Assembly (NCBI GenBank): GCA_023380955.1
Contig: JAMCTB010000184.1
Coordinates: forward strand, 5,810-12,489
Direction of reading: 5' to 3'
Source: Chloroflexota bacterium
Lineage (GTDB): Bacteria; Chloroflexota; UBA6077
Length of the DNA: 6,680 nt
This document shows, piece after piece, positions 372 through 6,680 of this stretch (positions are counted from its first letter, which is position 1; every line of letters starts with the position of its first letter). A program made the position numbers and the translations under genes. The notes beneath the pieces were generated by a model, which saw nothing but the letters and a program-made list of their open reading frames with translations, was not told where the DNA came from and made no database searches.

Positions 372-1142
372 CTAACGGCCGATCACGTAGCGGTAGGGGT
401 CCACCTCCTCCCGCAGCACCCGCAGCTCCTCCCCCGTCGGCGGCGGCGTCTCCGCCAGCGGCTCCTTGAACAGCATCGGAAAACCGGTTCGCTCCCGGAC
501 GGTGTCCGCCGTCACCCCGGCGTGGAGGCTCTCCACCTCCATCCGGCAGCTCTCCTGGGGGTAGCCGATGATCCCCAGGTCGGTGATCACCTTGTAGGGG
601 CCCGTCCCCGGGGGCAACCCGGCTGCCTCCCGCGCCCCCTTTCCCGCCAGGTAACCGGGGGTGGTGACGAAATCCACCTTCGGGACGAAGCGCCGGGTAT
701 CCTGGGGGGTCATCACGATGGTCCGCCAGCAGAGGGAGGCCAGGTCGTTGGCTCCGCCGGAGCCGGGGAAGCGCACCTTGGGCTTCCGGTAGTCCTGCCC
801 CACCATGGTCGAGTTGATGTTCCCGTGCATGTCGATCTGGCCCGCCCCCAGGAAGGTGTAGTCCACCAGACCCCTCTGGCACATCTCCATGATCTCGTTC
901 ATGGAGCCGGCCAGGATGGCCCTGTGGAAGGTGCGGGAGTCCCCCACCGAGATGGGCATGGTGGGCAGGAGAGGGCCGATGCCCCCCGCCTCGAACAGGA
1001 TCATCAGGTTGGGCGCCCACAGCCGCTGGGCCAGCATCGCCGCGGCGCAGGGCGCTCCCGTCCCCACCACCACCGTCCTGCCGTCCTCCAGCTGCCGGGC
1101 GGCCGCGCAGATCATCATCTCCATCTGGGTGTACTCAGCCAT
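372..1142 (-). CDS. CoA-transferase beta subunit, glutaconate CoA-transferase (GctB) type
   Basis: An intact 256-residue protein of the family I CoA-transferase beta group, at the usual length. Enzymes of this group move CoA between acyl-CoA and a free acid as alpha/beta pairs in the cytosol. Visible marks are 'VVVGTGAPCAAAMLAQR' near residues 24-40 and 'ILFEAGGIGPLLP' at 48-60. E51 in the latter is the probable equivalent of the catalytic glutamate of glutaconate CoA-transferase beta. Also seen are 'GAGQIDMHGNINST', the 'FPGSGGAND' glycine-rich motif, and 'SLHAGVTADTVRERTGF' near the C-terminus, all family signatures. The ATG at 1142 fits the family's N-terminus (MAEYTQMEMMICAAARQL). Only five bases separate that ATG from the inferred IS end, no good Shine-Dalgarno is present (a weak AGG lies about ten bases up), and no alpha subunit is in the window. 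The substrate is unknown; relatives include IpdB-like and 3-oxoacid CoA-transferase-like proteins. Confidence 0.88.
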   Translation of the reverse strand: MAEYTQMEMMICAAARQLEDGRTVVVGTGAPCAAAMLAQRLWAPNLMILFEAGGIGPLLPTMPISVGDSRTFHRAILAGSMNEIMEMCQRGLVDYTFLGAGQIDMHGNINSTMVGQDYRKPKVRFPGSGGANDLASLCWRTIVMTPQDTRRFVPKVDFVTTPGYLAGKGAREAAGLPPGTGPYKVITDLGIIGYPQESCRMEVESLHAGVTADTVRERTGFPMLFKEPLAETPPPTGEELRVLREEVDPYRYVIGR

Positions 1143-1165
1143 CTAGACGAGACCTGGTCATAAAT
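1140..1165 (+). repeat. IS terminal inverted repeat, left end
   Basis: This stretch matches the reverse complement of 2233..2258 at 23 of 26 positions. The mismatches are the 7th, 8th and 22nd bases. The core GAGACCTGGTCA is identical at both ends. The transposase stop codon (1170..1168) lies just inside. The outermost three bases are the start codon of the CoA-transferase beta gene. Confidence 0.85.
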
Positions 1166-1167
1166 CG

Positions 1168-2139
1168 TCAGGCGGCCTGCAAGTAGGGTTTGAGCCCGAC
1201 TCGCAGATCGTCACCGTTCTCGAAACGACGGAGCAACGCCAGTTGATACACCAACACGGCCCCCAAGACATACCGTCGGGTCGGGAGGAGTCCTCGGGTC
1301 GGCACCTGGCCGAGACAGTTGAAGATGGCCTTGAACTGGGCGTTGAAGTTCTCGATGGCGTGAGAGCGCAACTGATGGAAGACGCGACGGACCTCGACGC
1401 CATCGTCGGTGTGAGGGTACTTCCCCCGCTTGGTGGTAACCAACAGCCTGTCCTGGGACTCGCACAGTTGAAGCAGTTCGGGGTCGTTGTACTGGACATC
1501 CCCCAAAATGACCCGGATGTCGGCCGGCAGCTCTTCCAGCAGGGCCGGAGCCTGCGTGTTGTCCCCCGTGTTGGCGGCCGTGAGCTGAGCGGACAGGGGG
1601 ATCCAGACGGCCGCCACCGTGGTGACCAGGTGGAGTTTCCAGCCATAGACCCAGCCATGCCAGCCCGACTTGGTCCAGCCAGCCTCGGTGTCGATGGAGG
1701 TGTGAGGCACTACCCCAGCCTCCCGGTGCTTCTTGTGCCAGACGCCACCTCGGGCAGCCAGAGCCGTGCTGTCGATGGCGGCGGCACGGCCCCAGTCCTG
1801 GAATGGGTCGATCAGCACCAGGAGGTGGCGACCAAGGCAGGCGATCTGAGCCGGCAGGGTTTCGGGCATCGCCTTGAGCCGACGCTCGAAGGTGCGTCGA
1901 GTCGGGTAGCGACCGTTCTCGACCAGGAGGGTCCGAAGAGGCTGCATCTCGGGCTCCTCCAGGACGGCCAGCAAGCTATGCACTTTGGGCAGATGGCGCA
2001 CGACCATGATCACCAGCGCCTTCAAGAACAGGCGGTCCGAGTAGGTCTTGGGCCGACCTCGACGCCGGGTCGAGGTCGGCATCGGAATACGGTCAATGAG
2101 CCCTATGAGGGCGACAAGGATCGCTGTCTCGGTTACCAT
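1168..2139 (-). CDS. IS transposase, DDE type (IS4/IS5 superfamily)
   Basis: An intact 323-residue transposase that would cut and rejoin the ends of its own IS. The N-terminal region (about 20-100) is basic and helical ('STRRRGRPKTYSDRLFLKAL') and suits DNA binding. The RNase H-fold core carries the probable catalytic triad. D123 lies in 'AAIDSTALAARGG', D214 in 'VILGDVQYNDPE', and E263 in 'SHAIENFNAQFK'. The E-x6-K spacing to K270 is typical of IS4/IS5 enzymes. 'GWKLHLVTT' (167-174) followed by 'LTAANTGDN' is also standard for DDE_Tnp_1 proteins. The ATG at 2139 has GGAG about nine bases upstream. The gene is undamaged and fills the IS, so the element may still be active. It reads in the same direction as the dprA gene upstream of it. 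Confidence 0.92.
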   Translation of the reverse strand: MVTETAILVALIGLIDRIPMPTSTRRRGRPKTYSDRLFLKALVIMVVRHLPKVHSLLAVLEEPEMQPLRTLLVENGRYPTRRTFERRLKAMPETLPAQIACLGRHLLVLIDPFQDWGRAAAIDSTALAARGGVWHKKHREAGVVPHTSIDTEAGWTKSGWHGWVYGWKLHLVTTVAAVWIPLSAQLTAANTGDNTQAPALLEELPADIRVILGDVQYNDPELLQLCESQDRLLVTTKRGKYPHTDDGVEVRRVFHQLRSHAIENFNAQFKAIFNCLGQVPTRGLLPTRRYVLGAVLVYQLALLRRFENGDDLRVGLKPYLQAA

Positions 2140-2179
2140 ATGGTTGTCTCCGTGCTAGGGTGTGGTAACCATATGGTAC
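2131..2179. repeat. Twin ACCATATGGT palindromes at the transposase start
   Basis: The ten-base palindrome ACCATATGGT occurs at 2135..2144 and 2168..2177, exactly 33 bp apart (about three helical turns). The wider copies, 2131..2144 and 2164..2177, agree at 13 of 14 positions. The proximal copy covers the transposase ATG; the distal one lies in its leader or promoter region. Paired palindromes on the same helical face could be operator sites for autoregulation or subterminal transposase-binding sites. Function is inferred; the repeat is directly seen. Confidence 0.6.
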
Positions 2180-2186
2180 GGGACCG

Positions 2187-2212
2187 CCGCGCCGGATTGT
2201 CCTCCGGCGCGG
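2187..2212. repeat. Perfect 10-bp stem-loop inside the IS upstream of the transposase
   Basis: Arms CCGCGCCGGA and TCCGGCGCGG pair perfectly around a six-base loop. No T-tract follows on the minus strand. The hairpin lies between the right inverted repeat and the transposase start. There it could hinder read-through from dprA into the transposase, either as a weak terminator or by structure in the read-through mRNA. Some IS elements are known to use such protection; its use here is inference. Confidence 0.6.
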
Positions 2213-2232
2213 TCTGCTATTCATGACCAAGC

Positions 2233-2258
2233 ATTTGTGACCAGGTCTCGCTTAGATG
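2233..2258 (-). repeat. IS terminal inverted repeat, right end
   Basis: Partner of 1140..1165, with identical core TGACCAGGTCTC on the plus strand. The outer bases 2252..2258 also encode the last codons and TAA stop of the dprA-like gene in its restored frame. The IS therefore abuts, or slightly overlaps, that gene's 3' end. Confidence 0.85.
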
Positions 2259-3414
2259 TCTCTTTGGTCCTGCCCAAAGATGGAAGCTTGCTTCGGTCGA
2301 TCGCTCGTTGGCCGATAACGAATCAAGCAGTGCCCGCTTGAGCCAGTCGTTTAGCTGAGCTCTGGTGACTTCCGTATGGCCGAGGAGCTCCTCCATCGTG
2401 ACCGGAGACTTCGTCGCTAGCTCCTGGAACCGCAGCAGAAACAGATCATAGAAAGCGCAGTCTCTCCATCTGGCCAGTCCACCCTGGGAAGTCCGATGAG
2501 AAGAGGGCTGCCATGTCAAGCTCCCCCTCGGGCAGCCAGCGTGCGCCCTTGCGAACCAGTTCGGCATTGCCGGACTCGCCGTCCAGACGTGACTTGACCC
2601 AGAGGGGGACCCAGCGATGCTTCAGGTCTTCGACGGCTCCGTTCCAGGTACCCCCCTTACCCAAGGTGGATGAAACGACCACCGCCGCGTCAGACAGGCA
2701 GTATACGTACTTGTTGCGCGCCATGGCATTGCCAACGTCGAAACCCGCCTCCGGATTGAAGGGAGAGACCAGGACAAGGTTATTCGCCATGAGGAACTTG
2801 CGATACTTGGCCGACGTCGCCAGTCGCAAGAGACTGTCAGAGAGGACGCCGACTGCCGTCCCGTCGCACTCTAGCGCCGCAAGCATGGCCGTCTCATCGA
2901 CGCCGCGGGCACCACCTGAGATCACGGAGAGTCCCTGCTGTGCTGCCGTCTGACCGAGCAGGGTGGTACAGGCCAGATCGTCCGGGTTGGCGTCCCTCGA
3001 CCCGACCACTGCAATACCGCCCTGGTCTAGGAGGTTGCGGTTGCCGCAGCCGAAGATAACTGAAGGAGAGTCGGTCTTGAGGTGCATCTTAAGCCGGGCG
3101 GGATAGTCGGCATCGGATCGAGTCAGAAGCCAAAGCCCGGCGCGCTGCCACTTTTCCAGGGCCAGTCCCAGGCCGGCGGCGCGACCCAGCAGGTAGCGGA
3201 TGCGCTCCTGCGTTACCCTGCTGTCCACCCAGCCAGTCAAGAGCATGGCGGGATCCTCGGTCAGCAGGGCACCCGGCGAGATATCCCTTTCCTTAAGCCA
3301 GAGGGCGAAACGTCCCCATTCCGCGGGGGACAAGGGACGCGGGTCCTCTTTCGCCGGCTTGCCGAAATGGACCGTCATCAACAGGATCGCCTGGGTCTGC
3401 ACGCCAATAGTCAT
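2252..3414 (-). pseudogene. DprA/Smf-like protein gene broken by two frame changes near the 3' end
   Basis: The first frame gives 322 residues (3414..2446) with a clear DprA/Smf Rossmann fold. Visible are 'AVVGSRDA' at 135-142, 'VISGGARGVDETAML' at 164-178, 'GTAVGVLSDSL' at 185-195, and 'GNAMARNKYVYCLSDAAVVV' at 228-247. DprA proteins bind single-stranded DNA and load recombinase; relatives occur in conflict systems. The frame stops at a TGA just after 'MERLRF'. The +1 frame continues with a winged-helix-like tail, 'YDLFLLRFQELA' to 'NDWLKRALLD' (about 2454..2324). A second shift is then needed to reach 'IRYRPTSDRP' and 'QASIFGQDQRDI', ending at TAA 2252. One extra base in the A-run 2452..2454 explains the first break. 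The second looks more like a small deletion. The ATG at 3414 has GGAG inside the recQ end and follows the recQ stop after one base (TGA-A-ATG), implying translational coupling. Sequencing error cannot be excluded. The 322-residue product, lacking the tail, might still be made. Confidence 0.8.
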
Positions 3415-3415
3415 T

Positions 3416-5527
3416 TCAGTCTCCGGGGCTCGTGCTGGCCAGCGCCAGAGGCCACACGGGGCCGCTGCTGGAGCGCAGCAGCAGGGCGGCAACCACGGTC
3501 ATCGTCCAGCCGGAGTCTACCACGTCGTCGACCAACAGGACCGGCTCACGCGGGATGTCGTCGGCAACGGCGAACACGCCGTCGAGGTTGCGGCACTGGT
3601 GATCGCGATTCTGCTGAAGCTTCTGAGGCTGGTTGTCGCGCACCTTGGCAACGGCAGCTACAAAGCGCAGCCCCATCCGGTCGGCCAGGCGGCGTGCGAA
3701 ATCGGGGACCAGTTCCGGATGTCTGCGGGATGGAACGCATGTCACCCAGGCGGGGGCCGGCTCCGGCTGCCAGCGATCCCTGACCATCTCCGCGACCGCG
3801 TCGACCAGCTCGTCCCGAAAACGGCCGGCACGCTTGTCCTCGGCCACCATGTGTCCCCAACCGGCGTCGCCCCAGCGAGAGAGCACCCGCCCCACCTGGG
3901 CGCGCAGCGGCTGAGGAAGGTTACCACGAAAACCGTATTCGACGAACGCTCCTCCCGCCACCTGCTTGTTACATTCCAGGCGCAGCTCGGCCTGCCTCAG
4001 GTAGAGCGCCGCTTCCGCCGCCAGACGATGGTCGAAGTCCGCCGGGACCACCGGACGCCCCAGGCAACCAGCGCACTTGCCGCAAGGCTGGGTAGTTGCG
4101 CCGTCCAGGGCCACCGCCAGAAACGCCATCAGGCAGCCCCTGTAGTCGACATACTGCTGGACCTCTCTCCACTCCAGCTCCCGCTGTTGAGTAAGGCGCT
4201 GGATGCGCTCGTGATCCATACGATATTCTACCGGGGTTCTCACCCATCGTGAGCCGGTCTTTATGACCGGAGCCGGGTTTTCGACCGACAGATACTTCAA
4301 TACCTTCTGGATCTGGCCCAGGCGCAGATTGACGACTCCCTCCAACTCGCGCTCGCTCAGCCCGTCGGTCTCGGCCAGTTCAGCCAGTATGGTTTCGACG
4401 TGACGCTCGTCGGGAAAGGCGCTGGTCCGGAAGTACTCCTGGATCTCTCCATCCTCCCGACCCGCTAGCAGCACCCCCACCGCCCGATCAATGGCGCGCC
4501 CGGCGCGTCCCACCTGCTGGTAGTAGGCGATGATGGAACCAGGGGCCTGGTAGTGGACGACAAACCCCAGGTCCGGCTTGTCATAGCCCATCCCGAGGGC
4601 CGTCGTGGCCACCAGCGCCTTGATGCGATTGCCGAGAAGCTGCGATTCGAGATGCTGACGGTAGGAATCGGTAGTCTCGAAGCCTTCCGCTGTGACGCCG
4701 GAGTAGTAGGCGGACGCGCTGATGCCCTTTTGGTTCAACCAGTCGGCTACCTGATCGGCATCGCGCTTGGTGAGGGTGTAGACGATGCCGGTTCCCGGCA
4801 GGCTCGGCAGCTGCTCGGCCAGCCAGGCCAGGCGGGCCGCCTGATCGGGGAGGCGCAGGGTCTGCAACACCAGGCTCTCGCGAATCAGCGGTCCCCGTTG
4901 CACCTCGATGTCGCCGAGCTGGGTACAAACGTCTCTTACCACCCGGTCGTTGGCCGTCGCCGTGGTCCCAAGCACCGGCACGTTCACCGGCATGGAACGC
5001 AGCACGTTCACCAGCCGTCGGTAGTCCGGGCGGAAGTCGTGCCCCCAGTCCGAGATGCAGTGGACCTCGTCCACGACCAGTAGGCCCAGGGTGTTGGCGA
5101 TGGGGAGAAGCACCTCCTCCACGAACTGGTCATTCGCAAGCCGCTCCGGCGAGATCAGCACGGCATCGGCTTCGTTGTCCAGCACCCTCTGGATGAGAGG
5201 TGGCCAGTCTTCTCGATTTGCGGAGTTGATGGTCAACGCTCCGAGCCCGAGGCGTTCGGCGGCTTCGATCTGGTTGCGCATCAGCGCCAGCAGCGGGGAG
5301 ACGATCAAAGTGGGCCCCCTCCCCCGGTCGCGTAGGAGGCGGGTTGCGATAAAGTAGACCGAGCTCTTCCCCCAGCCGGTGCGCTGCACCACCAGCAGCC
5401 TCTTGTGATGGTTCACCAGCGCGTCAATGGCCTCCCACTGGCCCGCCCGGAACTCCGCCGCGGCATTGGCGAGCGCTCGCCGTAGCAGTTCCCTCGCCTG
5501 GTCTCTCTCCGTGGCCTCGAATCTCAT
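3416..5527 (-). CDS. RecQ-type DNA helicase fused to a ComFC-like phosphoribosyltransferase domain
   Basis: Intact, 703 residues. Helicase motifs in order are motif I 'QRTGWGKS' (48-55), Ia 'SPLLALMRNQ' (77-86), and II 'DEVH' (153-156) followed by the RecQ aromatic loop 'CISDWGHDFRPDYR' (157-170). Motifs III 'GTTATAN' (187-193), V 'ATTALGMGYDKPDL' (307-320) and VI 'YYQQVGRAGR' (335-344) follow. RecQ zinc cysteines are C465, C482, C485 and C488. No HRDC domain is visible. Instead, after a linker domain (about 495-585), residues 590-703 resemble ComFC-type phosphoribosyltransferases: 'CVPSRRHPELV', a Q/R/N-rich flexible loop (633-650), and the PRPP-binding signature 'VLLVDDVVDSGWTM' at 663-676. 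Expected activity is ATP-driven 3'-5' DNA unwinding in the cytoplasm; the PRTase substrate is unknown. The ATG at 5527 overlaps the leader ORF stop (ATGA), and GGAGG lies about 11 bases upstream. It is one base from dprA, so the two form an operon. Confidence 0.93.
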   Translation of the reverse strand: MRFEATERDQARELLRRALANAAAEFRAGQWEAIDALVNHHKRLLVVQRTGWGKSSVYFIATRLLRDRGRGPTLIVSPLLALMRNQIEAAERLGLGALTINSANREDWPPLIQRVLDNEADAVLISPERLANDQFVEEVLLPIANTLGLLVVDEVHCISDWGHDFRPDYRRLVNVLRSMPVNVPVLGTTATANDRVVRDVCTQLGDIEVQRGPLIRESLVLQTLRLPDQAARLAWLAEQLPSLPGTGIVYTLTKRDADQVADWLNQKGISASAYYSGVTAEGFETTDSYRQHLESQLLGNRIKALVATTALGMGYDKPDLGFVVHYQAPGSIIAYYQQVGRAGRAIDRAVGVLLAGREDGEIQEYFRTSAFPDERHVETILAELAETDGLSERELEGVVNLRLGQIQKVLKYLSVENPAPVIKTGSRWVRTPVEYRMDHERIQRLTQQRELEWREVQQYVDYRGCLMAFLAVALDGATTQPCGKCAGCLGRPVVPADFDHRLAAEAALYLRQAELRLECNKQVAGGAFVEYGFRGNLPQPLRAQVGRVLSRWGDAGWGHMVAEDKRAGRFRDELVDAVAEMVRDRWQPEPAPAWVTCVPSRRHPELVPDFARRLADRMGLRFVAAVAKVRDNQPQKLQQNRDHQCRNLDGVFAVADDIPREPVLLVDDVVDSGWTMTVVAALLLRSSSGPVWPLALASTSPGD

Positions 5528-5834: not shown

Positions 5835-5904
5835 TGTCACCCTGAGCGCAGCGAAGGGTCTCCACGCACATGTGCAGAGATTCTTCGCTGCGCTCAGAAT
5901 GACA
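5835..5904. repeat. 70-bp REP/MITE-like foldback repeat
   Basis: Arms 5835..5861 and 5878..5904 are inverted copies differing at about five of 27 positions and share the core CTGAGCGCAGCGAAG. The centre holds a perfect palindrome, GCACATGTGC (5866..5875), so the whole unit can fold into one long imperfect stem. Repeats with this core are dispersed widely in Chloroflexota and several other environmental phyla, and give spurious 'HSERSEES' translations. It has no coding function. It may act as a transcript-end structure or be a non-autonomous mobile repeat. Confidence 0.8.
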
Positions 5905-6011: not shown

Positions 6012-6143
6012 GGCTCAGCTTTCCCTTGGCCGGCCACACTGTATTGCCCCTGAGCCTGCCGGCCCTACTGGGGCCTTAGCCCGCAGTGCCTCTCGCCTTC
6101 GTTGATGCCCAACGGCGCCGAGAGCCGGAAGAGAGCTGTTCGG

Positions 6144-6680
6144 ATGATCGAGACCACCAATAAGAATCTGCTGGGGAAGGCCTGGTCCTCCCTGGCCCGC
6201 AAGGGCCCGGCGGGGCTGGGACGCGACCTTCGCGACTACCTGCGTTGGCGTCTGGCCCAACCCCAGGCGGCGACCGAGTTGCCCCGAGCTCCCCAATCCA
6301 ACTGGGATCTCAATCAGGAGGAGCTGAAAAGCCTCCCCGACGTTCTTCGGTCGAGGCCGGTCCTGGTGTACGCCGAGTCTACCACCCGGTGCAACCTCCA
6401 CTGCTTCATGTGCCGGCTGTCCTTTCCGGAGACGACCCGGCAGACCAGGGAGCACATGAAGCTGGAGACCTTCGCCCGGTTGGAGCCGCTACTGGAACCC
6501 GGCAGCCGGCTCAGCCTCTTCGGCCTCGGCGAGCCTCTGCTGAACCCGAACTTCGTGGAGATGCTCCGCATCGCCAAGGGGAGGGGCAGCTTCGTCGGCC
6601 TCAACTCGAACGCCATGCTGCTGACGGAGAGGATCGCCCGGGCCATGGTGGAGCTGGAGCAGGATCTGCTGGTGGTCTCC
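6144..6680 (+). CDS. Radical SAM domain protein, N-terminal part (cut by window edge)
   Basis: An open frame of 179 residues continues past the window end. Residues 1-70 form a basic, helical N-terminal region. The radical SAM signature CxxxCxxC follows as 'TRCNLHCFMC' (81-90), with C83, C87 and C90 as ligands of the 4Fe-4S cluster that cleaves S-adenosylmethionine. 'FGLGEPLLNPNF' (126-137) is the GGEP-like SAM-binding motif, and 'LNSNAMLLT' (153-161) fits the next strand of the barrel. This layout is common in radical SAM/SPASM proteins, but the C-terminus that would show a SPASM domain is missing and the substrate is unknown. The ATG at 6144 has GGAAGAGAG upstream. An in-frame ATG at 6105 lacks a ribosome site and is less likely. 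It is divergent from recQ with its own promoter, so it is probably a separate unit. Confidence 0.9.
   Translation, partial: MIETTNKNLLGKAWSSLARKGPAGLGRDLRDYLRWRLAQPQAATELPRAPQSNWDLNQEELKSLPDVLRSRPVLVYAESTTRCNLHCFMCRLSFPETTRQTREHMKLETFARLEPLLEPGSRLSLFGLGEPLLNPNFVEMLRIAKGRGSFVGLNSNAMLLTERIARAMVELEQDLLVVS

Follow-up and report, generated by a model that had tools for sequence, protein, structure and literature searches.

What does a RecQ-like helicase fused to a phosphoribosyltransferase (PRTase) domain do beside a DprA-like gene? The question is raised by a locus in a 6,680-nucleotide stretch of a Chloroflexota bacterium (assembly GCA_023380955.1, contig JAMCTB010000184.1, positions 5,810 to 12,489), referred to here as the window. 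A first-pass annotation, made from the letters alone, had suggested a DNA-processing or conflict module that it could place in no named system. We found that the pair is, by sequence, PsyrTA, also named RqlHI, a known bacterial toxin-antitoxin system, with an intact toxin and an antitoxin that has lost its tail. The assignment to a conflict-type pair was correct, but the system is not an unnamed one, since PADLOC and BLAST both identify it as a published toxin-antitoxin pair (PMC4670107). The pair itself was already known; what appears to be new here is an excess of a sliding-clamp-like motif in the tails of many PsyrA proteins.

The locus encodes a PsyrTA/RqlHI pair

The two genes lie on the minus strand, the helicase-PRTase gene first and the DprA-like gene second, with a single base (3415) between the stop codon of one and the ATG of the other (Table 1). 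With PADLOC profiles (PDLC03928/PDLC03927), the first gene is PsyrT at 984 bits over model positions 5-687 of 689, nearly end to end, and the second is PsyrA at 457 bits over positions 1-303 of 398. In BLAST, the E. coli Nissle RqlH homologue is 60% identical to the window toxin across 694 residues and the RqlI homologue 55% identical to the antitoxin across 311 residues. That a DprA-like gene starts one base after the helicase gene, as had been proposed, was borne out by Pfam (PF02481, 9.6e-37), and Foldseek matched the antitoxin to DprA (3uqz, E 9.6e-14) and ShosA (8zva, E 7.6e-12). Against the canonical DprA model TIGR00732 it scores 89.1 bits, below the cut-off of 191.15. The window therefore holds the parts by which PsyrTA/RqlHI is recognized: a RecQ-like core with intact motifs, a predicted PRTase domain with a phosphoribosyl pyrophosphate (PRPP) loop, and a same-strand DprA-like gene directly downstream.

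Table 1. Features of the psyrTA locus and the adjoining insertion sequence (coordinates in the window)
Feature	Position	Strand	Evidence
psyrT/rqlH, RecQ-like helicase-PRTase toxin, 703 residues, intact frame	3416..5527	-	open reading frame (ORF), PADLOC PsyrT, BLAST
RecQ helicase core, residues 24-375	4403..5458	-	TIGR01389 match 24-375; conservation in 80 loci plus the window
Cysteine cluster C465, C482, C485, C488 (zinc-type)	4064..4135	-	alignment of 81 rows
PRTase domain, approximately residues 590-700	3428..3760	-	Pfam PF00156 at 610-684, NCBIfam, C-terminal part of PADLOC PsyrT
PRPP loop VLLVDDVVDSGWTM, residues 663-676	3500..3541	-	sequence, alignment with the E. coli protein
psyrA/rqlI, DprA-like antitoxin, frame still open over 322 residues	2446..3414	-	PADLOC PsyrA, BLAST
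DprA/SLOG Rossmann core, residues 89-294	2533..3150	-	PF02481, Foldseek
Winged-helix (helix-turn-helix, HTH) remnant of psyrA, second frame	2313..2462	-	PADLOC PsyrA model 337-385 of 398, E 3.7e-6; BLAST
C-terminal tail remnant of psyrA, third frame, stop at 2252	2252..2320	-	three-frame translation, by-eye comparison with intact relatives
Insertion sequence adjoining the psyrA remnant, imperfect 29-nt terminal inverted repeats 1137-1165 / 2233-2261	1137..2261	.	
DDE transposase ORF inside the insertion sequence	1168-2139	-	Pfam

The earlier description of the toxin as a 703-residue protein with RecQ motifs, zinc cysteines and a PRPP signature at residues 663-676 agrees with the ORF, the profiles and the alignment. 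Its helicase core matches Pfam DEAD (7.8e-22) and Helicase_C (1.2e-12), scores 222 bits against TIGR00614 recQ_fam (cut-off 219.8) and carries the Walker residue K54, the DExH residues D153/E154/H156 and R341/R344. When the full-length structure was compared with the PDB, RecQ folds came out on top and only helicases were found among the first 50 matches. Across 81 aligned rows the zinc-type cysteines C465, C482 and C485 are conserved in 70 and C488 in 67; one well supported group of nine toxins on the tree lacks them (L050, L057, L058, L060, L062, L065, L069, L070, L078) with the other checked helicase residues intact.

Pfam recognizes the PRTase domain weakly (PF00156, 25.8 bits, slightly below the gathering score of 26.3), but the domain aligns with the C-terminal portion of PADLOC PsyrT at 2.6e-70; NCBIfam gave weak GntX, ComF and HGPRTase matches (HGPRTase E 0.0013). 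Within the PRPP loop, D667 is conserved in 78, D668 in 77, D671 in 69 and W674 in 78 of the 81 rows, gapped rows included. The loop reads DDxxDS, which we take to resemble hypoxanthine-type PRTases. The residues mutated in E. coli RqlH (K49, D148, D663) align with K54, D153 and D668 of the window toxin.

Toxicity, neutralization and binding are published for E. coli and would extend to the window pair by analogy. RqlHI was described as a toxin-antitoxin pair (Russell and Mulvey 2015; PMC4670107) in which RqlH without RqlI causes SOS induction, filamentation and mutation. According to the same paper, the PRTase domain is required for most of the toxicity and D663A abolishes most of it, the PRTase domain by itself is non-toxic, helicase mutants behave in a complex manner, and RqlI restrains RqlH and co-precipitates with it only if the PRTase domain is present. 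The window resembles RqlHI in gene content, gene order and the residues at the mutated sites, but its antitoxin stops at 322 residues, whereas E. coli RqlI has 400 (PMC4670107) and an HTH, and the Nissle homologue has a motif in its linker. PMC8790059 and PMC9122126 (Rousset et al. 2022) attribute PsyrTA to Sberro et al. 2013, and the second of these groups shosTA, syrTA and rqlHI as systems with DprA-homologue antitoxins. M. smegmatis RqlH (Ordonez et al. 2012, via PMC4670107) has the same domain plan and no RqlI partner.

ShosTA shares with the window a PRTase toxin and a DprA-like antitoxin, and the window PRTase domain gives a weak profile match to it (6e-4). However, Pf-phage ShosT is annotated as HAD plus PRTase, matches no helicase core and has a PRPP loop that reads otherwise than the window loop. 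We rejected membership in ShosTA on architecture, since the window toxin has a helicase core.

The pair recurs across genomes

Relatives of the helicase are abundant: all 7,998 scored candidates match at E <= 0.001, so that there are at least 7,998, far above chance. A genome scan with the toxin alignment returned at least 80 loci, and PsyrA follows the toxin on the toxin's strand in 69 of these 80, with a spacing of -34 to +47 nt in 66 of the 69 (inferred starts). Hits to the PsyrA model came from 379 of 398 genomes in one search and from 237 of 251 in another, mostly at scores typical of canonical DprA, and strong matches alone were used. The ShosA model likewise matched 201 of 229 genomes with a best score of 127 bits, matches that we took for canonical DprA; within a single family, 119 genomes searched at a self-chosen threshold of 1e-45 yielded no ShosA, which does not demonstrate absence. 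Directly downstream of three haloarchaeal PsyrT genes (L068, L077, L252; the L068 toxin match is partial) no PsyrA was found.

Among the 65 antitoxins uncut by a contig end, 40 have a C-terminal HTH and 25 do not; of the latter, L015 has a different C-terminal extension, and L017 and L018 are divergent. A quick tree was built from 78 loci and the window; over its 63 labelled rows the HTH label switches 10 times, and branches supported at 95 or above require at least nine of these switches.

The window antitoxin has a broken 3′ end

The first-pass annotation had the DprA-like gene reach 2252 and did not mention erosion. We found that the psyrA frame stops at 2446 and that position 2252 marks where a broken gene ends, with winged-helix and tail remnants following in two other frames. 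PsyrA model positions 304-336 have no match in the window and positions 337-385 match only out of frame, so that the C-terminal HTH is present out of frame only. The winged-helix remnant is 47-63% identical to relatives across 43-73 residues (12 best relatives listed). A by-eye comparison with intact relatives shows that the linker is mostly gone, as are the residues that join helix and tail. Because whole stretches of the tail are missing, the losses look like deletions and not single-base slips. Sequencing error as the sole cause is unlikely for the same reason, and also because the 322-residue protein represents a 90%-identity cluster of four member sequences on six contigs.

We do not treat the HTH as defining PsyrTA/RqlHI, since the 25 uncut relatives described above also lack it. 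RqlI 1-320, which has no HTH, gave nearly complete rescue in one assay and was effective in another (PMC4670107). The window protein is a natural near-equivalent of this published truncation, and because RqlI 1-320 still neutralizes RqlH, the window pair may still work; by analogy, the DprA core of the window antitoxin alone probably still neutralizes the toxin.

The frame-breaking losses and the neighbouring insertion sequence would also be expected of a dying locus, in which the antitoxin tail is deleted, the toxin is next or already silent, and no function is left. We consider this unlikely, given that the toxin frame is intact with its active-site residues, that the antitoxin retains the whole DprA core and recurs as a cluster on several contigs, and that HTH-less antitoxins are common among uncut loci.

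Many PsyrA tails carry a clamp-like motif

On reading the tails of PsyrA proteins we noticed a repeated Q-x-x-L/M-F or Q-x-x-L-x-L/F motif, which many intact members carry either at the C-terminus or in the linker that precedes the HTH. The bacterial clamp-binding consensus is given as QL(S/D)LF at the C-terminus, with variability possible (PMC9690074). The search pattern was written after the tails had been seen, and the 29 hold-out proteins were fetched afterwards; the hold-out is not fully independent, the tails of L153 and L167 being identical to those of discovery rows L049 and L066. Duplicates (L121, L162, L110-L120) and four antitoxins truncated at the end of a contig (L036, L051, L057, L059) were left out of the motif test.

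In the hold-out, the relaxed motif was found in 21 of 29 proteins (500 shuffles: mean 4.6, maximum 10) and the strict motif in 14 (mean 0.9, maximum 4); six borderline proteins (L109, L170-L174), kept apart from the main hold-out count, had the motif in four cases. The discovery set gave 43 of 65 loci against a shuffle mean of 10.9, and 69 of 119 proteins against 26.8. After dereplication, which kept 95 of 213 tails, the relaxed motif was present in 65 (shuffle mean 16.6, maximum 32) and the strict motif in 39 (1,000 shuffles: mean 3.3, maximum 11). When the Q was exchanged for each of nine other anchor residues, 2 to 8 of the 95 tails matched versus 1.8 to 4.6 expected, indicating that the excess is specific to Q. 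Canonical DprA showed no clear excess, with 6 of 39 relaxed matches versus a shuffle mean of 5.9 and 2 of 39 strict matches versus a mean of 0.7 and a maximum of 4. Within the conserved DprA core of the antitoxins the relaxed pattern also exceeds expectation (41/65 versus 17.6), so there only the strict pattern, which does not (3/65 versus 3.1), is clean.

The 95 tails hold 77 relaxed motifs: 46 end 15 or fewer residues from the C-terminus, another 23 sit 88-133 residues upstream of that end, approximately in the linker before the HTH, and eight fall between. The motif occurs in 26 of 40 antitoxins with an HTH and in 17 of 25 without; along the tree, its place, C-terminus or linker, shifts eight times, and the motif is gained or lost 14 times. 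Thus the motif, though also variable in presence, recurs with and without the HTH and at two tail places. In the E. coli Nissle RqlI homologue it reads QPELF at 320-324, counted from the start that gives a 400-residue protein. The last 40 residues of the toxins contained no match in 80 toxin ORFs, some of them incomplete. We conclude that the PsyrA motif matches, as a putative clamp-binding sequence, the QL(S/D)LF-type consensus in many, not all, members of the family.

The window copy retains a trace of the motif. Its tail remnant holds a clamp-like sequence at 2276-2290 that fits only a wider pattern, having I where the strict and relaxed patterns require L or M. A pattern search found no motif in the tail of the 322-residue frame, and the one relaxed match in that protein lies at residue 8, in the conserved N-terminal part. 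Some of the nearest relatives of the window antitoxin (P0122, P0124, P0127-P0130, P0133, P0134) also lack the motif by pattern.

The motif could instead have a different binding partner, for instance the toxin or a replication protein other than the clamp. We regard this as plausible, while inclining against it. The search pattern misses the motif at 22 of 64 loci and the wider pattern still misses it at 14 (the wider pattern matches 50 of 64, against a shuffle mean of 21.7), its presence is labile on the tree, one Pf-phage ShosA examined by eye has none, and the clamp-binding assignment is itself putative. However, the letters fit a published consensus that is said to vary (PMC9690074), and the excess is confined to the Q anchor, with no clear counterpart in canonical DprA.

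A model for PsyrTA and the points against it

Overall, we think it probable that the locus is a PsyrTA pair in which a PRTase-dependent genotoxic helicase is restrained by a DprA-like partner, and that the putative localization devices of the antitoxin tail have been lost in the window. From the E. coli genetics, the partner would bind the toxin through the PRTase domain and keep it in check. By comparison with what has been reviewed for the related ShosTA, we infer that a released PRTase domain would draw on PRPP and purines and that this activity would lead to DNA damage and growth arrest. According to that review, ShosTA has PRTase and pyrophosphatase activity, disturbs purine pools and gives rise to DNA duplications, and T7 Gp0.7 is its trigger (Pu et al. 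2025, via PMC12593503). In many intact members, the antitoxin tail would add up to two localization devices, the clamp-like motif and the winged helix, which may hold the complex at replicating DNA, where a clamp-docked complex could sense disturbance of the replisome. In the window, deletions appear to have shifted both devices out of frame.

We tentatively propose, at somewhat less than an even chance, that PsyrA/RqlI antitoxins are ligands of the sliding clamp. The tail motif would dock antitoxin and toxin on DnaN as a replisome-mounted guard, from which the toxin would be released or delivered upon phage takeover or stalling; the HTH would be an optional second anchor, lost or gained about ten times, and the window copy would be cut from both. 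If true, a clamp-binding tail would point to the location of the complex and to the signal that it senses, and it would be consistent with the published effects of RqlH on SOS induction and mutability. Contact between a toxin-antitoxin protein and the sliding clamp has a precedent in SocAB of Caulobacter, but there the toxin carries the motif and not the antitoxin (PMC9690074). Among titles and abstracts we recognized no literature linking RqlI/PsyrA to the sliding clamp, and the terms "clamp" and "DnaN" are absent from PMC4670107.

Several observations weigh against our interpretation. No PsyrA follows the toxin in 11 of the 80 loci, although in two of these (L031, L072) the position leaves the stored sequence, and RqlH stands alone in 99.6% of Gram-positive carriers (PMC4670107). 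PsyrTA of E. coli NILS69 gave a growth defect and no detectable phage protection under the conditions used in PMC12409345. In addition, the engineered RqlI 1-320 retains just the Q of the motif, if strain F11 is alike in this respect. Since that truncation with Q alone still neutralizes, the motif is unnecessary for antitoxicity, and this points either to a distinct targeting function or to no role at all.

It had also been suggested that the PRTase domain makes or binds a nucleotide-derived ligand sensed by the DprA/SLOG fold. The PRPP loop is conserved and LOG-type Rossmann folds are among the structural matches of the window antitoxin, as such a signalling pair would lead one to expect, but co-precipitation needs the PRTase domain, RqlI restrains it, and the available part of PMC4670107 reports no ligand. 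We judge a signalling pair to be improbable and favour direct restraint of the PRTase-dependent toxin by its DprA-like partner.

psyrTA lies near restriction systems at some loci

PADLOC was run at 1e-15 in ten genomes on 116 ORFs lying up to 8 kb from psyrTA and, as a control, on 117 ORFs from 5.5-16 kb stretches around canonical dprA in the same genomes; the ORFs of both sets were called by a simple rule. The psyrTA neighbourhoods matched 143 families, including, among the matches listed, a type I restriction enzyme (up to four ORFs), a type I methyltransferase (three ORFs), a specificity subunit (two ORFs) and mad2 (five ORFs). The dprA neighbourhoods matched 11 families: the PsyrA and ShosA models hit 10 ORFs each, which we take to be dprA itself, and further matches were DpdF (3), mad2 (2), PbeA (1) and RTasPolA (1). 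No restriction family was matched by PADLOC around canonical dprA in these genomes. Genes for hsdR lie within 8 kb of psyrTA in 4 of the 10 genomes (L006, L010, L014, L058; L058 below the NCBIfam cut-off).

At three of the 80 loci (L006, L010, L054; around 6700-16700), in Vibrio, Providencia and Shewanella, psyrTA sits inside a single type I operon, with hsdS on one side and hsdR on the other, and the same arrangement is found on an E. coli IncF plasmid (NZ_OX030731.1; L251 2625-12704). On an Acinetobacter plasmid (L256 1-7028), psyrTA directly follows BREX pglX and precedes a DUF262 gene. These copies in type I restriction-modification operons or beside BREX suggest a back-up to DNA-targeting defences. 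Conserved housekeeping loci with no enrichment of defence genes, which would have told against a defence role, are not the rule, as the hsdR neighbours and the control show; however, in three E. coli genomes that were read, the chromosomal copy does occupy a shared site, flanked by gntU and yhgN.

This shared site, the DprA fold and the weak ComF and GntX matches could be taken to indicate a competence (DNA uptake) or housekeeping repair module related to ComFA/ComFC/DprA, and a role in handling incoming DNA had been proposed. We reject a competence module because canonical dprA is a separate gene in all ten host genomes tested; together with the published toxicity and the restriction or BREX neighbours at some loci, this makes the alternative very improbable, and we retain PsyrTA as a toxin-antitoxin pair.

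Relatives also occur on mobile elements. Plasmids contributed 13 records with a relative at E <= 1e-60, whereas nine phage records gave partial matches alone, at 76% coverage or less and below 60% identity. Of 17 IMG/VR loci, two viral contigs (L081, L082) carry nearly full-length PsyrT relatives at 50-51% identity, two others have partial matches at 57-72%, and the rest are at 54% or less over part of the protein, mostly 28-36%. In a Chloroflexota genome (L055 3127-9814), addB- and addA-like genes, both below NCBIfam cut-offs, lie directly upstream of psyrT.

The window locus itself is flanked by a coenzyme A (CoA) transferase gene (372-1142), the start of which overlaps one end of the insertion sequence, and by a radical SAM gene (6102-6680). 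At and upstream of the transposase start, positions 2131-2177 hold two near-identical GGTTACCATATGGT-type sites 33 nt apart, a possible operator or insertion-sequence signal. Between psyrT and the radical SAM gene, a 28-nt inverted-repeat hairpin at 5835-5904 resembles repetitive extragenic palindromic (REP) elements.

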